The position numbers were made by a program, and so were the translations under genes. The notes below the pieces were generated by a model that saw only the letters and a list, made by a program, of their open reading frames with translations, searched no databases and was not told where the DNA came from. A stretch of 64,000 nt of DNA from Gautieria morchelliformis (Eukaryota > Basidiomycota > Agaricomycetes > Gomphales > Gomphaceae): contig WHVA01000584.1 in NCBI GenBank assembly GCA_015179125.1, forward strand, positions 1 to 64,000. Direction: 5' to 3'. Below are positions 3,991-61,456 of the stretch, one piece after another. Position 1 is the stretch's first letter. Every line of letters starts with the position of its first letter.

Positions 3991-4485
3991 AAAGCATCTT
4001 TTAAGAGATGAATAGATTATGAAACACTGTGGTGAGTTAGGACTTTAAGAATTTTAAAAGGTATACTCCCTTAGATAATACATTTCATACACATGTACGC
4101 CATTGACACCTTTAAATACATATGTGTTACCTTGGAATGGGTGAGTTAACTAGAATATATTTCTATTTGATTCAACATACTAAGAATACCTGGGTGGGTT
4201 TGCTTAATTAGGAAGGTTGTAGCATGAAAAATCTCCAATAATATCTTACATATTTTACATGAAAAGAACTGCAGTTTAGTTTTTAAAAAATGGAGTACCA
4301 ACAAAAGTATTAACAGATATCTATAAACAGAAGGAAATCATATACAATGGATTCTATTAAATGACCTTTAATTGTTTAGCATGCAACATGGAGAACTATT
4401 TCCCAGAATTGCTTTTTAATGATGGAATAGTTTCAGAAAAGATATCACTATTTAAAGATGGAGTTTTATGGGAACATCACTTTTA
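3991..4485. other. AT-rich spacer between module genes
   Basis: I see no convincing gene or repeat here. It separates two minus-strand genes that share the ELADMDVF-type module. Confidence 0.5.
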
Positions 4486-4980
4486 TTAGTAAACATCTGA
4501 TATTATAGTAATTCCAAACACCCTCCTGATATAAAATTTAATGTTTCTACCGCTTATTTCTTCTTGAGTAAGCTGAGATTCCTTTTGAGCATGAACCATT
4601 TGTTCTGGTTTGTGGTGTTGTTTTGTCATAAAATTTATTCGATCATCTATGATATTATATGATACCAGGTCTTTCTTTCTACGGTATACTGTAGACAACT
4701 TGCGAGGTTTTTCATCTATAAAGACATGCATATCCTCTAGACTATAGCAATTATCTTGTGAATCATAAAATATAAAACATCCACCAATCTTTCTAATTCG
4801 CAATCCTACATTCTTATTATTTTTGCTCTGCTCTCTTAATTCTATAATCTCTCTATGTTGTTCCGTAGATATCTGTTTGAGATTTGATATTATCCCATCT
4901 TTTTCTTTGATCCATTCTATGATTCTGTCAATTCTTTTAGAGAGCTTGACAATCTGGGCTTCCATGGCTACTAGACCCAA
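4486..4980 (-). CDS. unrecognised coiled-coil protein with one ELADMDVF-type module
   Basis: The 164-residue open frame starts at ATG 4,980. Residues about 1-55 (MEAQIVKLSKRIDRIIEWIK, then EQHREIIELREQ) are rich in charged residues and spaced hydrophobics, as in a coiled coil. Residues about 62-120 carry one copy of the module seen twice at 3,193-3,840: DNCYSLEDMHVFIDEKPRK, then KDLVSYNIIDDRINFMTKQ. Position-specific identities (DMxVFID, DLVSY, IN) make homology convincing although no known family is recognised. There are no membrane segments. The layout of coiled coil plus module suggests an oligomeric protein, but this is inference only. Confidence 0.5.
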   Translation of the reverse strand: MGLVAMEAQIVKLSKRIDRIIEWIKEKDGIISNLKQISTEQHREIIELREQSKNNKNVGLRIRKIGGCFIFYDSQDNCYSLEDMHVFIDEKPRKLSTVYRRKKDLVSYNIIDDRINFMTKQHHKPEQMVHAQKESQLTQEEISGRNIKFYIRRVFGITIISDVY

Positions 4981-5386
4981 TTTACAATTTCACAGAATCA
5001 ATTTTCAATACTGACTCATCTAATCTGGTTTTATAATTAAATTGTCAACTAGGTCCTAGCACTGTTGTTTAAATTACATATCATCACAAAGAATGTTATT
5101 ATAATCATGCCTGCTAACTACAAAGTTTGGTTTGATTGATTTATCTCCATCTGTTTGTGTATATGTCATCACTTATTGTGGAAGGTAATCTAGACCAGTA
5201 GTTGAGAATATAATTCCAGTAAAATTATATATTCCTTTTACGTTGTTTATGGTTTTATTTAGAGAGTTGAATAGTGAATGCAATATAAAATCGAAATATA
5301 TAAAGTCGTCATCTTATCAACGAACTCAACTATACAACACTCCTTTTTCCGACTCATAGTTGTAGCTGAGAACTTTCCTTTATAAT
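4981..5386. other. AT-rich spacer upstream of the transposase
   Basis: No gene is seen. The 5' end of the chromodomain transposon at 5,387-6,762 should lie here, but I could not identify a terminal inverted repeat. Confidence 0.4.
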
Positions 5387-6762
5387 GAATGAGTCACTCC
5401 TTGAAGAATATCAAATGTTGATAATGAACATTGGGGGTTTCTTGATGAAAAATGGCCTTTGTTGAAGCCAACTAAATTTCATAGATCAGGACTAAAACCT
5501 GTTTCTGAAATAGATCTCATCAAAAAAGAGTATTAGAGAAACTTGGACCAATACCAGTGTTCTTCTTCCTAGTAGTGTTGTTTCCATTCAAGCACCATCC
5601 AGGTCCATATCAAAATGTAGAGAAAGGACTATTAATACTCTATCATCTGCTTGAAGGTTGTACATTTGATGATATGAACAGATTTATACCTGGGAGTACT
5701 TTTCATGCGATCCATCAGAGTTTTTTTGGACATGAAAAGGACCTTAATAATGACTTAAATGACAAAGTCATTGATTTGTTGGCTCATATGTTTTCCAACA
5801 TGAGGATTCGAATATTATCTGCAAAGGATAATAATAAGGAAGAACTATTCAACACAATAACTTTATTCCTTGATGGTCATGACACAAGAGGAACAGAAAT
5901 AGGAAGATCATCTAAAGTACAATGGTCATATAAACACAGAAATTCTGGAATGAGAACTCAAGTAATTATGGATTTTCATGGGATGTCTTTGTTTGTTTCT
6001 GATTCATTGCCATATAGCCACTCTGATGGAGCAATGTTCACAGAAATGAACATAAGAGATAAGATGGATAAGGCAGATCGTATGGCTCTTGATGGAGGCT
6101 ATACACTATTTGTGAAACAAGTAGTAAAGCAAGGTAGATTGAAAGAAATGAATTTCTGTCATCCAATTCGGAAGCAGAAGAATGCTGAACTATCAGATAT
6201 GGAGAAGCGCTACAATGAAAGATTTGGTAGTTTCAGATCAAAGATAGAAAGCTTATTTGGAGAGTTAGGAATGACATTTAAGAAGTTAAATAATCAGAAG
6301 CCTGTCCAAACCTCAAATCCTAAGATATTCTCTTTGCAGTTTAGATTAGCATGCTTGCTGCTTAATATCAAACGGTTTGTTAAATTAGGAGAGCTCCAAG
6401 CACAACCTAATCATATGTCATGGATGGAGAGCCATTTTGACTATCCATCAACTGATACCCTCGACTTTGAGTCACTGAGAATCTCAACTCTAAAGGATAT
6501 TACAGAGGATGCAAAGAAAATGTCTCAGTATCAAGCACGATTATTAGCAGGTACAGATACAAATGAATCTGACCAAGATATTGAAGATACATATGAAGTG
6601 AACAAAACACTGGATCATAAGACAAAAGGAAAGAAGAGAGAATACTTAGTTCAATGGAAAAACTATGAAGATCCCACTTGGGTAAGGGAGGAAGATTTTG
6701 ATACAACACAATGCATAGAGGACTACATTAAACGTCAAAAGAAGAAGGGTAGATGCTACTAG
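5387..6762 (+). mobile_element. DDE transposase with C-terminal chromodomain (DDE_4/Harbinger-like)
   Basis: The main open frame is 5,557-6,762 (401 residues). It shows a DDE nuclease of the DDE_Tnp_4 type: first aspartate in TLFLDGHDTRG, second in ALDGGYTLF, and glutamate in IESLFGELGMT, with FKHHPGPYQNVEKG and FGSFRSKIESLFGE as family-like blocks. Residues about 346-396 form a chromodomain (YLVQWKNYEDPTW), which in other elements binds modified histone tails and can steer insertion. An upstream segment from ATG 5,387 (MNESLLEEYQML, then DEKWPLLKPTKFHRSGLKPV in another frame) looks like the N-terminal part and is joined by a frameshift or intron. Very similar DDE-chromo proteins are known, from memory, in Glomeromycota. 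Codon use is as AT-rich as the surrounding block. No terminal inverted repeats were found, so element ends are unknown. Confidence 0.75.
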
Positions 6763-41021: not shown

Positions 41022-44000
41022 TCAAAGAGGGGAGTGAGCACATGTGCGGATGAAGCAGGGCCAGCAACACACCAACTTCAACTCTGACAATGCTGTTCTG
41101 GGGTTCATGTTGGGGGCTGCTGCAGCCGTCTCCAGCAGTAACGAGGCAATCACATCATGACCTTTCACAACTGCTAGCTGCAGTGCACAACCATACTTTC
41201 CTCCTTGGGCATTGATGTCGGCACCCTTATCTATGAGCAGTCGGACAGTTGCCTCATGACCCCAAAACACTGCCTCCTGCAGTGCACTCCCATAGTATCC
41301 TCCCTGAGCATTCACGTCTGCACCCTTGTCTAGGAGCAAGCGGACAATTGTGTCATGACCTCGTGATGCAGCTGCCACCAGTACACTCTTATTGCTTGCT
41401 CCCTGCGCGTCTGCACCCTCCTCCAGGAGCAAGTGGACGATTGTATCATAACCCCATAATGCCGCCACCTCCAGCGCACTCTCACCATGTGCTCCCTGGG
41501 CATTCACATCTGCGCCCTTCTCTAGGAGCAACTGGGCAATCACAGCATGACCCTGTGACACTGCTGCCTGCAGTGCATTCCCATGGATTCCCCCCTGAGG
41601 ATTCACAGATGCACCATTCTCTAGGAGCAACTGGACTATTGTGGTCTCACCCCATGACGCTGCAGCTTGCAGTGCACTCCCATAGTGTCCTCCCTGTGTA
41701 TTCACATCCACACCCTTCTCTATGAGCAGCTGAACAATAGTATGGTGCCTGTTTGCCACTGCTGCCTGCAGCACACTCCCATACACTCCTTCCTGAGCAT
41801 TCATGTCTGCACCCTTCTCGAGGAGCAACTGGACGATTGTATGATGACCCCGTGACGCTGCCACCTGCAGTGCACTCTCATTGTGACTTCCCTGCACATT
41901 TTTCACATCCGCGCCCTCTGCTAGGAGCAGCTGGACTATCTTGACCAGACCCTGTGATGCTGCAGCCTGCAATGCACTCCCATACTTTCCTCCCTGAGCA
42001 TTCACATCCGCACCCATCAATAGGAGCAGCTGGACTATCTTGACCAGACCCTGTGATGCTGCAGCCTGCAATGCACTCCCATACTTTCCTCCCTGAGCAT
42101 TCACATCCGTGCCCTTCCCTAGGAGCAACCGGACAATTGTATCATGACCATTTATCACTGCTGCCTGCAGTGCATTCCCATAGAATCCTCCCTGAGAATT
42201 CACATCTGCACCCATCTCTAGGAGTAACTGGACAGTGGTATCATGACCCTGTGAAGCTGCCACCTGCAGTGGTGTGCCATAGTATCCTCCAGGTGCATTC
42301 ACATCTGATCCTTTATCCAACAGAGCTTGGCATGCTCGATCCAACCCAGTTGCAGCAGCAATGTAAAGAGGAACAATTCCAGGCTTCACCACTAGACCAT
42401 GATTATTGTAAATCCACATCCAGTTAACATAAGCAGCACTCATGGGCTCCAGGAGAGTCATGGTCAGTCCATGTAGATCAGCACTGCCACCAGCAGCATC
42501 CCACAGAGCATGGCCCATCCAGTGTACTGCAGCATAGTGAGATAGTGGATAGGATCTGGCAGTATTCCGGTTTACACCATTATCCTGGTTGAATTGCAGC
42601 AGGTATGCCAGACATGTCTTCGCAATGAACACATGTGCAATCTTTTCGTTAAACCAATAATACGAAAGTGTGGTTGTGCTTGAGCGAAGGTGTTCCGAGA
42701 TCAGATATTCTCGCACGGAAAAGTGTGCCAGTCTGATGTCAGTGATGAGTACACTGTCATCATGGTGGCCAATGCTGCCTTCAAAATCGCTGCCATCGTA
42801 GTTGGTATCCGAAGGGTTGCTGCCCGCATAGGGACTACTCTCTGTGTTGCTGCCCTCCGGGGGTGTAATAGTGACAAGACTTGAGCATATAGTCACTATG
42901 CTGCTTGGATCCAGAAGCCGCCGACGCTCGTCAAACAGAGGTCCTTCTCTTGCATCAGGATCTGTAGCGAGCACCTCCACAGCCTCGTCCATTGATAATG
43001 TGCCTACAGAGAATGCGAGCCATTGCAGCAGGCTCAGAGCATCCCGCCTATCGTCCTCATCGATACCAGCAAGAATTCGATCGTACGTCTCATATAGCGT
43101 CCTTGGTAGACGGATGAGTGCTTTCTCCAGCGCCGCAGGTGTTCGGCACTTTTGTAGTGCATCCATTTGACAGACAACCCATCGAAACCTTGCTGTTCTG
43201 TCAGAAAGCATTCACACAGGTAAATAACTACTCACATCCCATGTGCACCCTGCGTCAAGGTAGTCTCAACCATGACCCTCTCAGCTGCAGAGCACATCTT
43301 AAACTCAACATCCCCCGCAAGTCTCCTGGAAATATAGACTTGGATGTCACCATCGACGAGACTCTCGTCCATGGATACCTCATGTGAAACCAAGCCACTC
43401 AGCGCCTTTGCAATATCGCGCTCATCCCGACTTGTTGCCAGCAGGTGTAATGTATCCAGCTCCCAATCGTGAACCTCTCCAAGCACTTCCAGAAATCCAG
43501 ATCGCTGCGGGCATTCGTCAAGTGCATCAAAAACAATATATACGGCTTGGAAGCTGCTGATGATTGTTTTTAAGGTTGACATCAGGTCCTCTTGACCTGG
43601 GGCCTGGCGTGCCTGCTTGTTCTTAGAAAACAGTGATTCCAGGGAAGGGGGGGTGCTCGCGCATTGGGAAGATAACTGCTCAATCAACGATCGAAGCACA
43701 GCATTTGGAAGGGTGTCCTTGTTGTTAAAGTCAAAATAGAAAAATGCCAATGCACGGGAGTGGTCAGAACGGCAGTGAGTTGAAAGTGCGTCAACGATGG
43801 TCGAGCTTGACACGTTCACTTGTTAGATAGGCGCAATTTCATGACGATTATGATATACATACCAAAGGATCGTTTTTCCAGCGCCAGCTGTGGGCATCTA
43901 TCAGATAAGAGCAGAAGAATGCTGCTTAGCTGACTCACGTATTCCGAAGAGCCAAAGGAACGAATGAGGGTCATCTCGCCATTCTTGGAAGGATTCTCCC

Positions 44001-52110: not shown

Positions 52111-52450
52111 TACATGAGCAGCATGAAGAGCTGTTTGCTCGATCTATGAAAACTGTGTGATGGCTGCTGGGTCATTATTCTGGATGTATTTTGGTAAGAC
52201 TGGTGGCACCTGAAGCCTTGGAGGCCCACTTACATCTCAGGCCATGCGGAGCCAAAGAGCTTGCCAAGCGTCCACATGACATGCCCTTGAGTCACAGTAT
52301 TGTTATTGGATGTATCACACACCTTCTTATCCAGTGTCATACTTTATTCTCACTGAGGTGATGCAATGTAGCCTTGTAAATTTGACTAGTGGCTGTTACA
52401 TATTGAGATTTCCACAAGTTGGAACTAGAAAGGACAACGGCTTCAACTTA
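52111..52450. other. no recognisable gene
   Basis: Nothing is seen in this spacer to the left of the pogo element. Confidence 0.4.
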
Positions 52451-52854
52451 CAGTCGGACCCCCAATAATGCATACTACCAATAATGCATAACCCCTGGTA
52501 ATGCATAGAAAAGTTGTCCACCAGCGTGGTAGTTAGAAAATTACTTAGAGCCTTGCATAATGCATAATGCATAACATATTTGACAAATTTAATCATAATA
52601 TGCATTATTGCAGGTGCAGTTTCAGCGCTTCAGAAACCCAAACTGGGACAAACTCTTCGCATATGGACCTCAGCAAACCAGCCGGATGGGCATGTGGCTC
52701 TAACGGAGAACTTCTTGATGCTTCTGAGATGGAATGGGATGAACCAGATGATGGACCAGCCATGCCTGGTTGTGCAGCCGACCCATCGGAGCTCATGCCA
52801 CCGGTTGTTAGGGAATCCAAATAGCAAGAGCATGATCATACCGGGAATGTAAAG

Positions 52855-53403
52855 ATGATCCAACAGAAGCCAGTGCATCATAGAAGGACAGTATCCTCAG
52901 CTATTGTAACAGCCAAAATGAGGCCTCGGTCAAATCTTACTCTTAAGGACAAGATTGACATTATTCAGTTCATGGTTGACAAACACTATCCACAGATTAC
53001 CCAAAAGGCCGTCATCAAACATTTTCACTCAAAATTCCCTGGTATAAAACAGCACACCATCTCAAGGATCTGGAATCAGCATGCCCAGCTCCTTAAACAT
53101 GTGGCAAAGAATCCAAGTGACTTGGCGTTTACCCGTAAACGTCAGGTGGAGCACCCTGAGCTTGATGATGCATTGAAGAAATGGGCACTGCAGGCACTAG
53201 GGAAAGGGTCAAAGTTGACAGGCGATCTCATACGGACAAAGGCATATGCCTTTCAAGAACTTCTCGGCATGCCAGTTACTGAGAGGCTGTTGTTCTCTAG
53301 TGGTTGGCTTGATTCTTTCAAGCAACGGATCAATTTAAAACAATTCAAGTCACATGGCAAGGCAGGATCAGTAAAAGAGACAAATGTAGCAGCATCAACG
53401 TTT
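52855..53403 (+). pseudogene. pogo transposase N-terminal part (CENP-B-like DNA-binding domain)
   Basis: The frame from ATG 52,855 encodes a first helix-turn-helix (RSNLTLKDKIDIIQFMVDKH, QKAVIKHFHSKFPGIKQHTI) and a second CENP-B-type domain (HPELDDALKKWALQALGKGS, LFSSGWLDSFKQRINLKQFK). The homologous sequence stops at about 53,403 (SVKETNVAAS); the remaining open codons to 53,466 read antisense to the inverted core and are not real. In active relatives the DDE domain would follow here on the same strand. Confidence 0.85.
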
Positions 53404-54297
53404 CTCCCTCCATTTCAACCATTTCTTCTGCTTTCAATTTGTTGCATTCTCCTATCTTGCGCTTAGCTAAGTCATCGATGGCCTGTTGCAGCAAATCAAT
53501 CGACGTTTGGACCGAACTGACAACGATTGTGGTATGGGGCAGTGAGGGGGATTGGTGTGGAGTGGACTGCCATCCAAAGCTCAAGGGGTCACTATTTTGG
53601 TATGTTTCCAGCAGGCTGCAATTGTTTCAGTGGTTATCACTCCCCAGGCTTCATCTGCCATCCTCATCGCCATCAGCTGGTCAATCCTCCATATGTCCTG
53701 CTCACCCCTCTCCTCTCTTTCGATCACATGCCTAATGTAGAACCTACGATAGTGGGATTTGAACGCCACTATGATTCCAGCATCACACGGCTGAATCCGG
53801 GACGTCATATTCGGGTCCAGTAATTCCACTCGAACATGGGTAAGTGTTGTAGAGTCCCAGATGTGTGAAGGTGTATTATCAATCAACAACAGGATCTTGC
53901 GTTGCTGACGTTGCATATGTCATTTAAGCCTGACAGCCAACTAGAAATCCAGTGAGCCACATTTTTTTTCTTCCTTGTAAACACCATTACTCACTGCTGA
54001 AATATGCTCCCAACCATCCAGGCCTTTTTGTTCCAGTAGTAATTGAAGCCAAGTTGTGCACCGGTCTTTTTTTGGAAGCACCGAGGCCATTGTGCGTGCC
54101 CTATAACTAGAGGCGCCAACTTCATACTGCCATCTGCACTCACTCCAAAGAGGTAAGTGATCTGAGTCTTGTCTCCTTTAATGCCTGACATATGTTCTAA
54201 TGCCAGTCCACGGTCTGGTGGCATACGAAAAAAAGCCCTGTTTCATCTGCATTAAATATGTCCTTGAGTGCGTATCCATCTGAGAAAAGGAGTGGAG
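53404..54297 (-). pseudogene. pogo transposase DDE core, inverted
   Basis: On the minus strand the core reads LFSDGYALKDIFNADETGLF (first aspartate in NADETGL), GIKGDKTQITYLFGVSADGS, APLVIGHAQWPRCFQKKTGA, WNKKAWMVGSIFQ, then QRKILLLIDNTPSHIWDSTT (second aspartate in LIDNTPSH), RIQPCDAGIIVAFKSHYRRF (third aspartate in QPCDAG). A homopolymer-length frameshift lies after ETGLFF, and a stop-containing stretch lies near 53,920-53,990. It ends DDLAKRKIGECNKLKAEEMV near 53,404. All three catalytic acids are kept, but the segment is on the strand opposite to its N- and C-terminal partners. Confidence 0.85.
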
Positions 54298-54568
54298 AGA
54301 TGAGGACATCGTTGAGCAAGCGATCACCGATGTTTCTCCTGAAGAAGCTATGGAAGTCAGCGATGATGAAGAGCACCCACCTCTCATGGCACCAGCGCAA
54401 GCCTTGCAGGCTGTAAGGGAACTGCAGTGCTATGCCCTAGCTCACAGCGGTCCAGAATGGGATGATGCAACCCAGCTGCTTCCCAAACTGACATGAGTTC
54501 TGCGCCAACAGCGAGAGGAGGCGCTTATGCAATCAACCCTAGATTCGTTTATCAATCGTGCGGTTTAG
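54298..54568 (+). pseudogene. pogo transposase C-terminal tail
   Basis: The plus frame reads DIVEQAITDVSPEEAMEVSD, then APAQALQAVRELQCYALAHS, and after one stop REEALMQSTLDSFINRAV. The final QSTLDSF block is the usual end of fungal pogo-type transposases (PIP-box-like). Being on plus, it fits the N-terminal part and not the neighbouring minus-strand core. Confidence 0.75.
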
Positions 54569-54676
54569 AACGGTCTAGAGAATATTTAGACAATTTTCAT
54601 AATTTTTTTGGGATAATTCAACATGTTTTCACACCCTCTCTGTGATAATGCATTATTGGGGGTCCGACTGTATATG

Positions 54677-56200: not shown

Positions 56201-56698
56201 TGTTGTGTGCATTTATGCTCCTGCACCAAAATCAAGCATAATATATTCAATTTGTTATATGGTTTTTCAATCTCTTCTCGCATTGTTCTTGTCCCATGCA
56301 TCCATTTCTCTGATTATTTTCGAAATTTTCCTGCCACTCCTTACCTCTCCATTTCATCTTGTTATTTCTATTTTCACAAGCGGCTGCACCCAGCGGAGTC
56401 TGAAATGACTTCGACGCGCGAGCTCTTGGGCGCTAAAGGGCCGGGTAGTAGTACATGCACAGTGAGACAGATTTCCCCCTCTCTCAGTGACAACTAAATT
56501 CACTGAGAGAGGCGAGTAAATTAGTCTAGTATTCTTTCGATTTATTGACCTAGAAATCCTCTGTAGTGAATTGTTTTCTAGGTAGTGTATAATATATTTA
56601 TAGTGACAACTAAATTCACTGAGAGAGTGAATTGTTTTCTAGTCTATTCTTTTGAGCAACAAGTCCATACCTACTGCCTATAATTCCTGTCCTCTACA
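56201..56698 (+). repeat. Copia 5' LTR
   Basis: 498 bp, beginning TGTTGTGTGCATTTATG and ending TCCTCTACA. It contains two copies of GTGACAACTAAATTCACTGA with the palindromic core of the AGAG-bounded motif near 56,485 and 56,601. Confidence 0.95.
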
Positions 56699-56703
56699 GG
56701 GTT

Positions 56704-59700
56704 ATGGGCCCCAGAGACACTTCTGAGAAGCTATTGGGTGTTGAGAAGCTTGCTACTGATGGAAGTAATTGGCCATTGTGGCGAGCCACTCTCATCAGCT
56801 ATTTCGAGTCCAAAAATCTACTCAAGCATGTAGAAGGGAGAGTCACTCGACCTCCTGATCCTCCAGTCATGCCCCCAGGCCATATTCTTACAGAAGCTGA
56901 GGAAACTCAGATGGATAAGGCCGAGGAGAAGCTGGAGAGATACCTTGCTAGAGAAGGACTAGCCAAGACCCAAATCATCGTCTCAGTGTCAGAGTCATTA
57001 GCCCTGATGCTACAGAAGCAGAAGACAGCAAAAGAGACTTGGGATGCACTGGTCAATGAAATGACCAAAAAGCCCAAGATGGTCCTCACCAGCCTGCAGA
57101 GACAACTCTGCAGTATGAGATGTCCTGAGGATGGAGACTTGAGAGATCATTTGGACAAGGCCCAAGACCTATATGCTCGTCTTAATGAGATGGGAGCCAG
57201 AGTTTCTGAAGAAGAATTCATGGACATTATCCTTGCGTCACTTCCACCATCCTATGAGGCAGTCATGAACGCCCTTACCAATTCGCTTGAAGAATGCGGG
57301 ATGCCATTAGTCCCTGATAATATTATTAGGGTACTAAAGGCTCAGTATGACAGGAAGAAAACACTCCCGCAAGAAGAGCAGGTGTTTATTGGTTCATCTA
57401 CTAAGAAGGACCAGAAGGCGCAGAAGGTGCATGTATGCACCAACTGCAAAAAGCCTGGACATTCCATCGAAAATTGCTGGGCTAAAGGAGGTGGTAAAGA
57501 AGGTCAAGGACCATGTCAGAAGAAAAAAGCCAAAGGCAAGAAGAAGAAGGGTAAAGCAAAAGCGAATGTTGCCGAAGAAGAGTCCTCTTCTGAGGAAAGT
57601 GATGATGGGCATCTTGCCTTCACCAATTTCGACGAGTGCTCTAATTTCAATCTGAGCACATCCTCAGGAGTTATAGTCATACTCGACACCGGAACGACAT
57701 CACATATGACTCCTCACAAAAATTTATTGAGGAACTACTGTCAATTCTCACAGCCGAGGACTATCCGAGCAGCCAACAAAGGCACCTTTGATGCCTTCGG
57801 TTCAGGACTGCTTGTATTATCCAATAAGGTTGGAGATAAAACAGTAGAAGTCACGTTGCAAGATACATATTATGCTCCAAAAATTGCTGCTACCCTCGTC
57901 TCGATCGGTCAGTGCGATGATGCTGGCTACGATATTCCACTCGGTGGCCAGAAATGCACGATATCTAACGCTGCTGGAAAGGTATTGATGCAAGAACCGA
58001 AGGTCAATGGTTTATATCGACTAGACCTCCAGTCACCAAGTGCTCAAGCCCATATGTGTTTGTCTGCCATGGAAATTCATCAGAAAATGGGGGACATCTC
58101 ACAGAAGTCCCTACAACATCTATTAAATCATGGCATGATATTGGGCATTGAACTGAGCTCCACAGGCGATAGAATTGTCTGTGATGCGTGTATTCAGGCC
58201 AAGATTGCACGCAAACCTCTTCCTCGAGAACCCAGAGACTGAACATCAAAATTCGGTGACAGAATTTATTCTGATGTCTGGGGACCTGCAAGACACCTCA
58301 CGATCGATAAAAAGTCATATTATGTCTCTTTTATCGATGACTACTCAAGAGAATCGGTGATCTATCTCATGGCCAACAAATCAGAAGCATTTTCAAAGTA
58401 CAAGCTCTACGAGGCTTTAATGCTTCGACAGAGAAATGTGCACATCAAGGCACTTGTTTCTGATCGAGGGGGCGAGTATACGAGCTCTGAATTCGAACAG
58501 CATCTAGCCAAACAAGGCACAAAGCATCAGTTGACGGTACACGACACACCAGAGTCTAATGGTGTTGCCGAACGTCTGAACCGAACTCTCACTGAGAGAA
58601 CTCGTGCCATGCTGTTAGAATCAGGCCTTCCTAAGATATTATGGGGCTATGCGATACAGCATGCCAATTATCTTAGGAATAGGACGCATACAAGAGCTCT
58701 ACCGGATAAAACGCCCTACGAGATGATTCACCATGAGAAACCGAATCTCAAAGACATTCATGCGTGGGGAACTGAAATCTACATTAAAGTCACTCAGGGA
58801 GATAAATTGGCAGCTCATGCCAAGAGAGCTCGGTGGATAGGAATTTCTGCGCAGAGCCATGGTCATTATGTTTATTGGCCTGACTCGCACAAAGTTTCTG
58901 TCGAGCAGAACGTTGTGTTTGATTCAGAGATGAAGAAGGGAAAGGTCCCAATCATTTCTATTGAGGAATCCAAGCTACCTACGTCTAGAGAAGAGAAGAA
59001 GGCCATTCCGGCATCAGTGCCTGTGCCCAGTCACTTAGTCAGTGAAGAGGCAAAAATTGAAGAAATTGATGAAAGTGCACCAGAGGAATATCTCGAAGAG
59101 CTGCAACCTATTCAAGGAGTTGATGACAGACCTAGAGAAGCTGAACCGATAAGGAGAAGCGAAAGGATCCATCAACAACAAGTGCAGCCGGCCCCATCAG
59201 GTCCCGTAACAAGATCTCAAACTCAGAGACAAGCTGGCGCACATATGACTACGCTAGCTTATGAGGACGTTGAGGACCAAAAAGAAGATTTATTCGACCA
59301 AGAATTATCCTCCGAGATTGATGGCATCAGTAGCTATGAGTGTGCCATCAGTGCGTTTCTAACCGACGGTCAAAATAATAACAAGGCGCCGGATTTGAGT
59401 CAAATTGAACCTAGAAATGCAGATGAAGCTCTGAATAATCCTATGTGGAAGAAATCAATGGACAAAGAGAACGATGCCCTAATCGACAAGGGAGTGTGGG
59501 AACGAGCCAAATCACCTCCTGGAGCCAATATTGTCGGTAATAAATGGGTCTACCTTTGGAAGCGTAATCCAGAAGGGAAACCAATAGTACCTAAATCGAG
59601 AATGGTCGCCCAAGGCTTCACGCAGAAGTTTGGAGTCGACTATGATGAGACATACTCACCTGTTGCTCGATTATCCTCCCTACGGATCATATGCGCCATT

Positions 59701-60945
59701 GCTGCTAGGAATGACTGGCCTATTCATCAAATGGACGTGGACTATGCATACCTCAATGCTACGTTGCCTGAACCTATTTACATGAAGCAGCCGTATGGAT
59801 ATGAGTTCGGAGACAAGGACGAAGTGCTACTTTTAAAGAAAGCACTCTATGGCCTCAAACAATCTGGAAGAGAATGGTACAAATGTCTAAGTGGTGAATT
59901 CCACAAGTTAGGATTCACTACGTCAGCCACAGATGGGGCAGTATTTTATAGACGTGGCGGAAAGGGGCATGTGATCATTGCAACAGCTGTGGACGACCTT
60001 ACCATCACAGCTGAGAATCAGTCAGTCCTGGATGAAGTCAAGCGAGATCTTGCTCAGGTCTTCAGTATGACAGATCTAGGCGAGATTCATTGGCTATTGA
60101 ATCTTAAAATCGAAAGAGACTGGCAGAAGAAAACTATTGCAATTTCACAACCTGCATACATCGAGAAGATCATCAAAAAATTCAATCTCGAAGATGCAAA
60201 GACTTATGCTACACCTCTTGATCCAGCCGTAAAATTATCTAAAGACCAATGTCCTTCTACAGAGAGAGGCAAGAAAGCCATGTCGAAGTTTCCATACAGG
60301 CAAGCCATAGGATCACTGATGTGGGCAGCTGTAGCCACTCGACCTGACATTGCATTTGCAGTGTCATTACTCTCGCAATTCCTCGAAAATCCAGGTGGCA
60401 CACATTGGAATGCAGTTAAACGTGTCTTCAAATATTTGAAAGGCACGAAGCATTACAAGCTCACACTTGGAAGAAATCGAGACGGCTTGATGGGGTATTC
60501 AGATGCAGATTGGGGTTCACAGAGTCATAGGTGTTCGTATTCGGCATACTTATTTCAGATTGATGGAGGCACTGTTTCATGGAGTTGCCAGAAACAGTCG
60601 ATAGTAGCCCTCTCATCAACTGAAGCCGAATTCGTCGCCCTGACCCATGCGGGCAAAGAGGCTCTCTGGATGCGCCATTTTATTTCTGAAATATTCCAAC
60701 CACTGAACAGACCCATCCAAGTTTATTCAGACAATCAATCAGCCATTACAATCACATATGGCACCCAACAACATACAAGAACCAAACATTTCGACATCAG
60801 ATTATATTTCCTTCGAGATATAATCAAAAATCAACAAGCCAAGCTCGTTTATTTGCCAACTGAACAAATGTTGGCAGATATCCTCACTAAAGGACTTCCT
60901 AGTCCTAGAGTGAAAATCCTCAACGAGCAAATCGGAATATATTAA
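56704..60945 (+). other. Copia gag-pol region: Gag, protease, integrase, RT, RNase H
   Basis: Domains in order: Gag with WPLWRATLISYFESKNLLKH; a basic zinc knuckle CTNCKKPGHSIENCW; aspartic protease with VILDTGTTSHMTPHK; the pre-integrase zinc region (CDACIQAKIARK); integrase core with VSDRGGEYTSSEFEQHLAKQ and ESNGVAERLNRTLTERTRAM; reverse transcriptase with YAYLNATLPEPIYMKQPYG and the catalytic AVDDLTIT; and RNase H with GYSDADWGSQ and TKHFDIRLYFLRDIIKNQQA, ending near ADILTKGLPSPRVK. The order integrase before RT defines Copia. Confidence 0.95.
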
Positions 60946-60958
60946 GCTTGAGGGGGCG

Positions 60959-61456
60959 TGTTGGGTGCATTTATGCTCCTGCACCAAAATCAAGCATAAT
61001 ATATTCAATTTGTTGTATGGTTTTTCAATCTCTTCTCGCATTGTTCTTGTCCCATGCATCCATTTCTCTGATTATTTTCGAAATTTTCCTGCCACTCCTT
61101 ACCTCTCCATTTCATCTTGTTATTTCTATTTTCACAAGCGGCTGCACCCAGTGGAGTCTGAAATGACTTCGACGCGCAAGCTCTTGGGCGCTAAAGGGCC
61201 GGGTAGTAGTACATGCACAGTGAGACAGATTTCCCCCTCTCTCAGTGACAACTAAATTCACTGAGAGAGGCGAGTAAATTAGTCTAGTATTCTTTCGATT
61301 TATTGACCTAGAAATCCTCTGTAGTGAATTGTTTTCTAGGTAGTGTATAATATATTTATAGTGACAACTAAATTCACTGAGAGAGTGAATTGTTTTCTAG
61401 TCTATTCTTTTGAGCAACAAGTCCATACCTACTGCCTATAATTCCTGTCCTCTACA
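60959..61456 (+). repeat. Copia 3' LTR
   Basis: 498 bp, beginning TGTTGGGTGCATTTATG and ending TCCTCTACA, about 99% identical to the 5' LTR. Confidence 0.95.

Follow-up and report, generated by a model that had tools for sequence, protein, structure and literature searches.

The window analysed here is a stretch of 64,000 nucleotides from Gautieria morchelliformis (contig WHVA01000584.1 of assembly GCA_015179125.1). At positions 52451-54670 it carries a DNA transposon of 2220 bp with an inverted catalytic core. The terminal inverted repeats, at 52451-52473 on the plus strand and 54648-54670 on the minus strand, are 23 bp long and 100% complementary (23 of 23 bases, or 25 of 25 including the TA, 52449-52473 against 54648-54672). 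They are bordered by the TA target duplication at 52449-52450 and 54671-54672. A Pfam search placed two DNA-binding domains on the plus strand, CENP-B_N (PF04218, 52921-53100, E 1.7e-5) and HTH_Tnp_Tc5 (PF03221, 53155-53343, E 2e-11). The DDE_1 domain (PF03184) was found on the minus strand, split into a first part at 53994-54170 (E 1.1e-11) and a second part, with D2 and D3, at 53608-53913 (E 5.8e-18). Short terminal inverted repeats with a TA duplication, matched by an empty site with a single TA, and a DDE_1 catalytic domain accompanied by a CENP-B/Tc5-type DNA-binding domain are characters of the pogo superfamily, to which the element, judged by its sequence, belongs. An earlier note on this DNA had described it likewise, as a pogo transposon with identical, TA-flanked 23-bp ends.

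The element is thus divided into three parts. The left outer part (52474-53393, plus strand) holds subterminal repeats and the N-terminal part of the transposase, and the right outer part (54283-54647, plus strand) holds its C-terminal tail and the right subterminal region; both are in the original orientation. Between them lies the inverted core of 889 bp (53394-54282, minus strand), which comprises the DDE catalytic region with most of the DDE domain and is opposite to the orientation in normal copies. The right subterminal region (54640-54672) lacks a 45-bp stretch that three sister copies have. This stretch is rich in copies of a terminal-repeat motif, and short direct repeats flank the loss.

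The surroundings of the element include a copia-type element and other retrotransposon genes (RVT_1, Retrotrans_gag). The copia-type element at 56201-61258 has direct repeats of at least 300 nt at both ends, and is probably a young insertion, because these repeats are 99% alike. Elsewhere in the window, open frames at 41025-43822 on the minus strand contain NPHP3_N (NACHT-like; NACHT itself fell below the cut-off) and a long ankyrin repeat array in 99-base units, and one open frame of 417 codons at 5509-6759 combines a DDE_Tnp_4 transposase domain with a chromodomain.

Sister copies and the insertion site

A whole-genome search with the element gave 74 matches, and 18 stretches were retrieved and mapped. 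Core sequence together with one or both outer parts is preserved in seven of the compared copies. The core is in normal order in five of them, C134, C230, C175, C374 and C604, so that the uninverted copies which the earlier note had proposed to look for are present in the same genome. The remaining two are the window copy and C179, the latter inverted at other breakpoints. C374 and C604 are older, about 82-86% identical, and retain only 344 and 44 core bases, respectively. Unrelated DNA has been inserted into the cores of C134 (about 1.5 kb), C230 (about 1.1 kb) and C175 (about 8.8 kb). In addition, eleven places in the genome share one common internal deletion, query position 569 being joined to 1926, and represent a non-autonomous subfamily; stretches L011-L014 are examples, and matching end repeats were seen at several places.

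The comparison with C134 displays the inversion directly. Window positions 52449-53393 and 54283-54655 match C134 on one strand, both at 96%, while the block between them matches on the other strand at 95% and 94%, the longest core match covering 653 bases (95%, E 6.0e-297), far more than chance could produce. Together with the strands of the Pfam domains, this bears out the claim that the core is on one strand and the DNA-binding part and C-terminal tail are on the other. In the left part C134, C230 and C175 are 95.8-96.4% identical to the window copy, and C179 is 92.3% identical. Pieces of the core match those of the same four copies at 93.3-96.1% identity. For the right part the values are 96.0% (C134), 93.6% (C230) and 95.2% (C175). 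Differences found in the window copy only amount to 9 of 758 compared sites in the core and 12 of 919 in the left part. The right part has more, 10 of 372, with three sisters compared there instead of four. A core borrowed from another copy was also considered, but none of the sisters is conspicuous as its source. Six two-copy variants in the core, and two in the left part, are common to the window copy and C179; the identity between these two copies is 93.3-93.9% for the core and 92.3% for the left part. This slight lean towards a partly shared core history could be due to chance or to past exchange between copies.

C179 is normal through its left part and the initial 99 core bases, after which a block of about 670 bases is reversed. 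The left breakpoint of this block is clean, and the rest of the element beyond the block is missing, including the right end. The inversion falls within 4460-5231 of stretch L035. No other match was found for the roughly 485 bases after the block among the 40 candidates scored, and a repeat follows. Protein searches agree with the inversion, HTH_Tnp_Tc5 being on the plus strand and DDE_1 on the minus strand. As a control, 27 HTH_Tnp_Tc5 matches were paired by hand with DDE_1 matches within a limit of 3 kb. A partner was present for 19 of the 27, and only two of these pairs, the window copy and C179, lie on opposite strands, leaving 0 of 15 outside the family of the window element. Seven other HTH_Tnp_Tc5 matches are without DDE_1 in 3 kb, C537 having one on the same strand 4.7 kb off; in C175 the two domains are on the same strand about 9 kb apart. 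With C175 counted, two of five copies in the family are inverted against 0 of 15 pairs outside it, some of which may be near-copies of one another (p = 0.053, calculated by hand as 10/190). As the inversions of the window copy and C179 differ, inversion has occurred at least twice among the five young core-bearing copies; the excess in this pogo family is not significant and suggestive at most.

For the insertion site, the two flanks were joined at TA and run against the genome. The segment C204:301556-301712 spans the joint unbroken at 95% identity, and a second, older site, C513:86702-86824, also spans it at 80%. Of the 592 columns of the C204 alignment, 527 are identical and 50 contain gaps, which leaves 15 mismatches among 542 aligned bases. 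It is unbroken at the joint and has a single TA there, corresponding to 52449-52450, as in a paralogous empty site of a clean insertion. Because C204 runs through the joint with one TA, the element most likely entered one of several related segments by ordinary transposition. A precise loss of the element at C204, instead of a gain at the window locus, would be an unlikely alternative. The perfect terminal repeats, the TA duplication and the empty site are in accordance with the earlier view of perfect ends and with a correct insertion.

Joints of the inverted core and state of the gene

The left joint lies at 53393-53394 and the right joint at 54282-54283. These limits are tighter than the approximate 53,400-54,297 given before. 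At the left joint four sisters carry 26 bases more than the window copy between the left part and the core, and at the right joint no base was lost on the side of the right flank. The joined ends do not overlap at either joint, and no bases are duplicated. Each joint was found once in the genome of 122 Mb (1113 contigs), allowing up to three mismatches. An amplified inverted form was looked for as well, and there is no sign of it in this assembly, since each joint occurs once.

Short inverted repeats at the breakpoints had been suggested as a thing to check. Neither a repeat search nor a comparison of the breakpoint zones found any. The longest exact inverted match between the zones is 6 bases, a length reached by 297 of 300 shuffled pairs, for which the mean is 7.2.

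The reversed core opens with an A, whereas a G would be expected from the sisters. Decay of CG to TG or CA is frequent in the left part of the family, where it affects 52 of 140 cells across 28 columns. Since the joint would have created a CG, and CG is so often decayed in that part, we infer that the A is a later decay of the CpG formed by the joint. If this reading of the base holds, some time has passed since the flip.

The gene has further lesions besides the inversion. A stop codon, TAG, stands in the N-terminal part at 52822-52824 on the plus strand, and none of the four sisters compared has a stop here. Open reading in the core is limited to pieces that lie in different frames, and the core is frame-broken in either orientation. 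The stop and the broken core would have killed the gene even without inversion. The earlier statement that the inversion inactivates the gene is therefore right as to the inactive gene, but not as to the inversion being the sole cause. To judge from its frames and termini, the window copy is dead and non-coding and keeps its ends, and it might move only when a working transposase of the family is present.

Origin of the inversion

The account that we consider probable is a chance inversion by end-joining in a pogo copy that had been inserted normally. A pogo-superfamily transposon would have been inserted at TA by ordinary cut-and-paste. Later, or during copying of the window copy, two double-strand breaks would have arisen inside the element, and end-joining would have put the piece of 889 bp between them back in reverse, the left break losing 26 bp to trimming. 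Joints with zero overlap and a small loss of 26 bp are what is found in end-joining inversions, and the about equal divergence of the core and the left part is counted in favour of the same account. We infer a single event of breaks and end-joining rather than copying errors. On the other side, end-joining leaves no unique mark, and template switching during repair could give identical joints. The slight lean of the core towards C179, the additional differences in the right part and the likeness of one core edge to the start of the terminal repeat also count against this account, and the different inversion in C179 hints that the family may be unusually prone to such events, for which pure accident would not account.

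The main rival is an aborted gap repair or template switch during transposition, by which the core was copied backwards from a sister template. It had been put forward in the earlier note and is retained here as unlikely. The eleven places with the common internal deletion are of the product type that PMC2213677, in its treatment of PIF/Harbinger elements, attributes to abortive gap repair, and the core shares more variants with C179 than the left part does. However, the joints contain neither microhomology nor duplicated bases, and in no sister does the resemblance to the core clearly exceed that to the outer parts, a test which is weakened by the star-like shape of the family. The programmed invertible segment that the note also suggested is the least credible of the readings and can practically be dismissed. 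It would agree with a core flipped between intact ends and with a second flipped copy, but C179 is broken at different places and the core is frame-broken whichever way it lies. Two breaks with end-joining are preferred over it because the breakpoints lack inverted repeats, with no exact inverted match above 6 bases between their zones, the joined ends do not overlap, and 26 bp have been lost; flipping the core back would not restore the original, since these bases are missing at one joint. An assembly error that set the core backwards is, on indirect grounds, highly improbable. The core has no flanking inverted repeats that could have misled an assembler, and mis-joining would not be expected to produce the loss of 26 bp or the changed base at the left joint. 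With pieces 93.3-96.1% identical to those of four young sisters, the core was not taken over from any one of these copies, and its rate of window-only differences matches that of the left part.

A further explanation places the cause in the transposase of the family, which would cut at a cryptic, end-like internal site, so that misrepair makes core inversion a recurrent by-product. The left edge of the core coincides exactly with the beginning of a stretch similar to the terminal repeat; compared with the start of that repeat, 6 of 8, 7 of 12 and 10 of 16 bases are alike, scores that 0.3%, 0.9% and 0.1% of interior positions attain for 8, 12 and 16 bases, respectively. Two of the five young core-bearing copies are inverted, against none of the 15 other HTH_Tnp_Tc5/DDE_1 pairs within 3 kb. 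Against this, the comparison is post hoc, the likeness having been noticed before six edges were scored at three lengths; the remaining five are unremarkable, and the likeness is kept as a weak lead. The edges of C179 were judged by eye only, and the contrast of two in five with 0 of 15 reaches just p = 0.053, with near-copies possible among the 15. We therefore regard this cause as highly unlikely. That core inversion is recurrent in this pogo family, perhaps by transposase nicking end-like internal stretches, is equally a long shot; if true, inactive copies whose ends still work but whose cores are flipped would accumulate beside the deletion copies.

With end-joining as the probable cause, the window copy is a case of ordinary decay of a dead DNA transposon copy and not a switch. 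It is a clean example, resolved to the exact base, of the way in which copies of a DNA transposon are lost through rearrangement and yet keep their ends, and both an empty site and sisters without the inversion support it. Copies with a flipped core would escape gene calling confined to one strand. The window copy alone raises no new question; anything further is hinted at only by the inversion in C179.

Comparison with known transposons

A hand count on the translations of the window copy and C134 gives a D2-D3 spacing of 31 residues. The ranges given in PMC7386202, where it deals with these families, are 29-36 for Tigger, 29-42 for Lemi and 29-59 for pogoR. The element thus has the DD29-36D spacing of Tigger and fits Tigger-, Lemi- or pogoR-like elements, but these ranges overlap, so that the spacing is not decisive for the family within the superfamily. 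With pogo elements of these kinds, which fall in the IS630-Tc1-mariner group, it has in common the combination of CENP-B_N, HTH_Tnp_Tc5 and DDE_1, the short ends and the TA duplication; the window copy differs from them by its flipped core and broken frame. The Fot elements, the common pogo elements of fungi, are of the same superfamily; the same account gives them as DD35D and states that some Fot clades also use TA. The spacing of 31 found here does not fit Fot.

The closest parallel to the rearrangement itself is the PIF/Harbinger element MtPH-A6-4-XIV of Medicago, for whose internal inversion gap repair is proposed in the relevant part of PMC2213677. There the inversion is tied to 60-bp tandem repeats, whereas the breakpoints of the window copy are without repeats. 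Like the window copy, MtPH-A6-4-XIV is a DNA transposon with an internal region flipped between its ends, and internal inversion is, by the description of that element, a type of rearrangement already described for DNA transposons.
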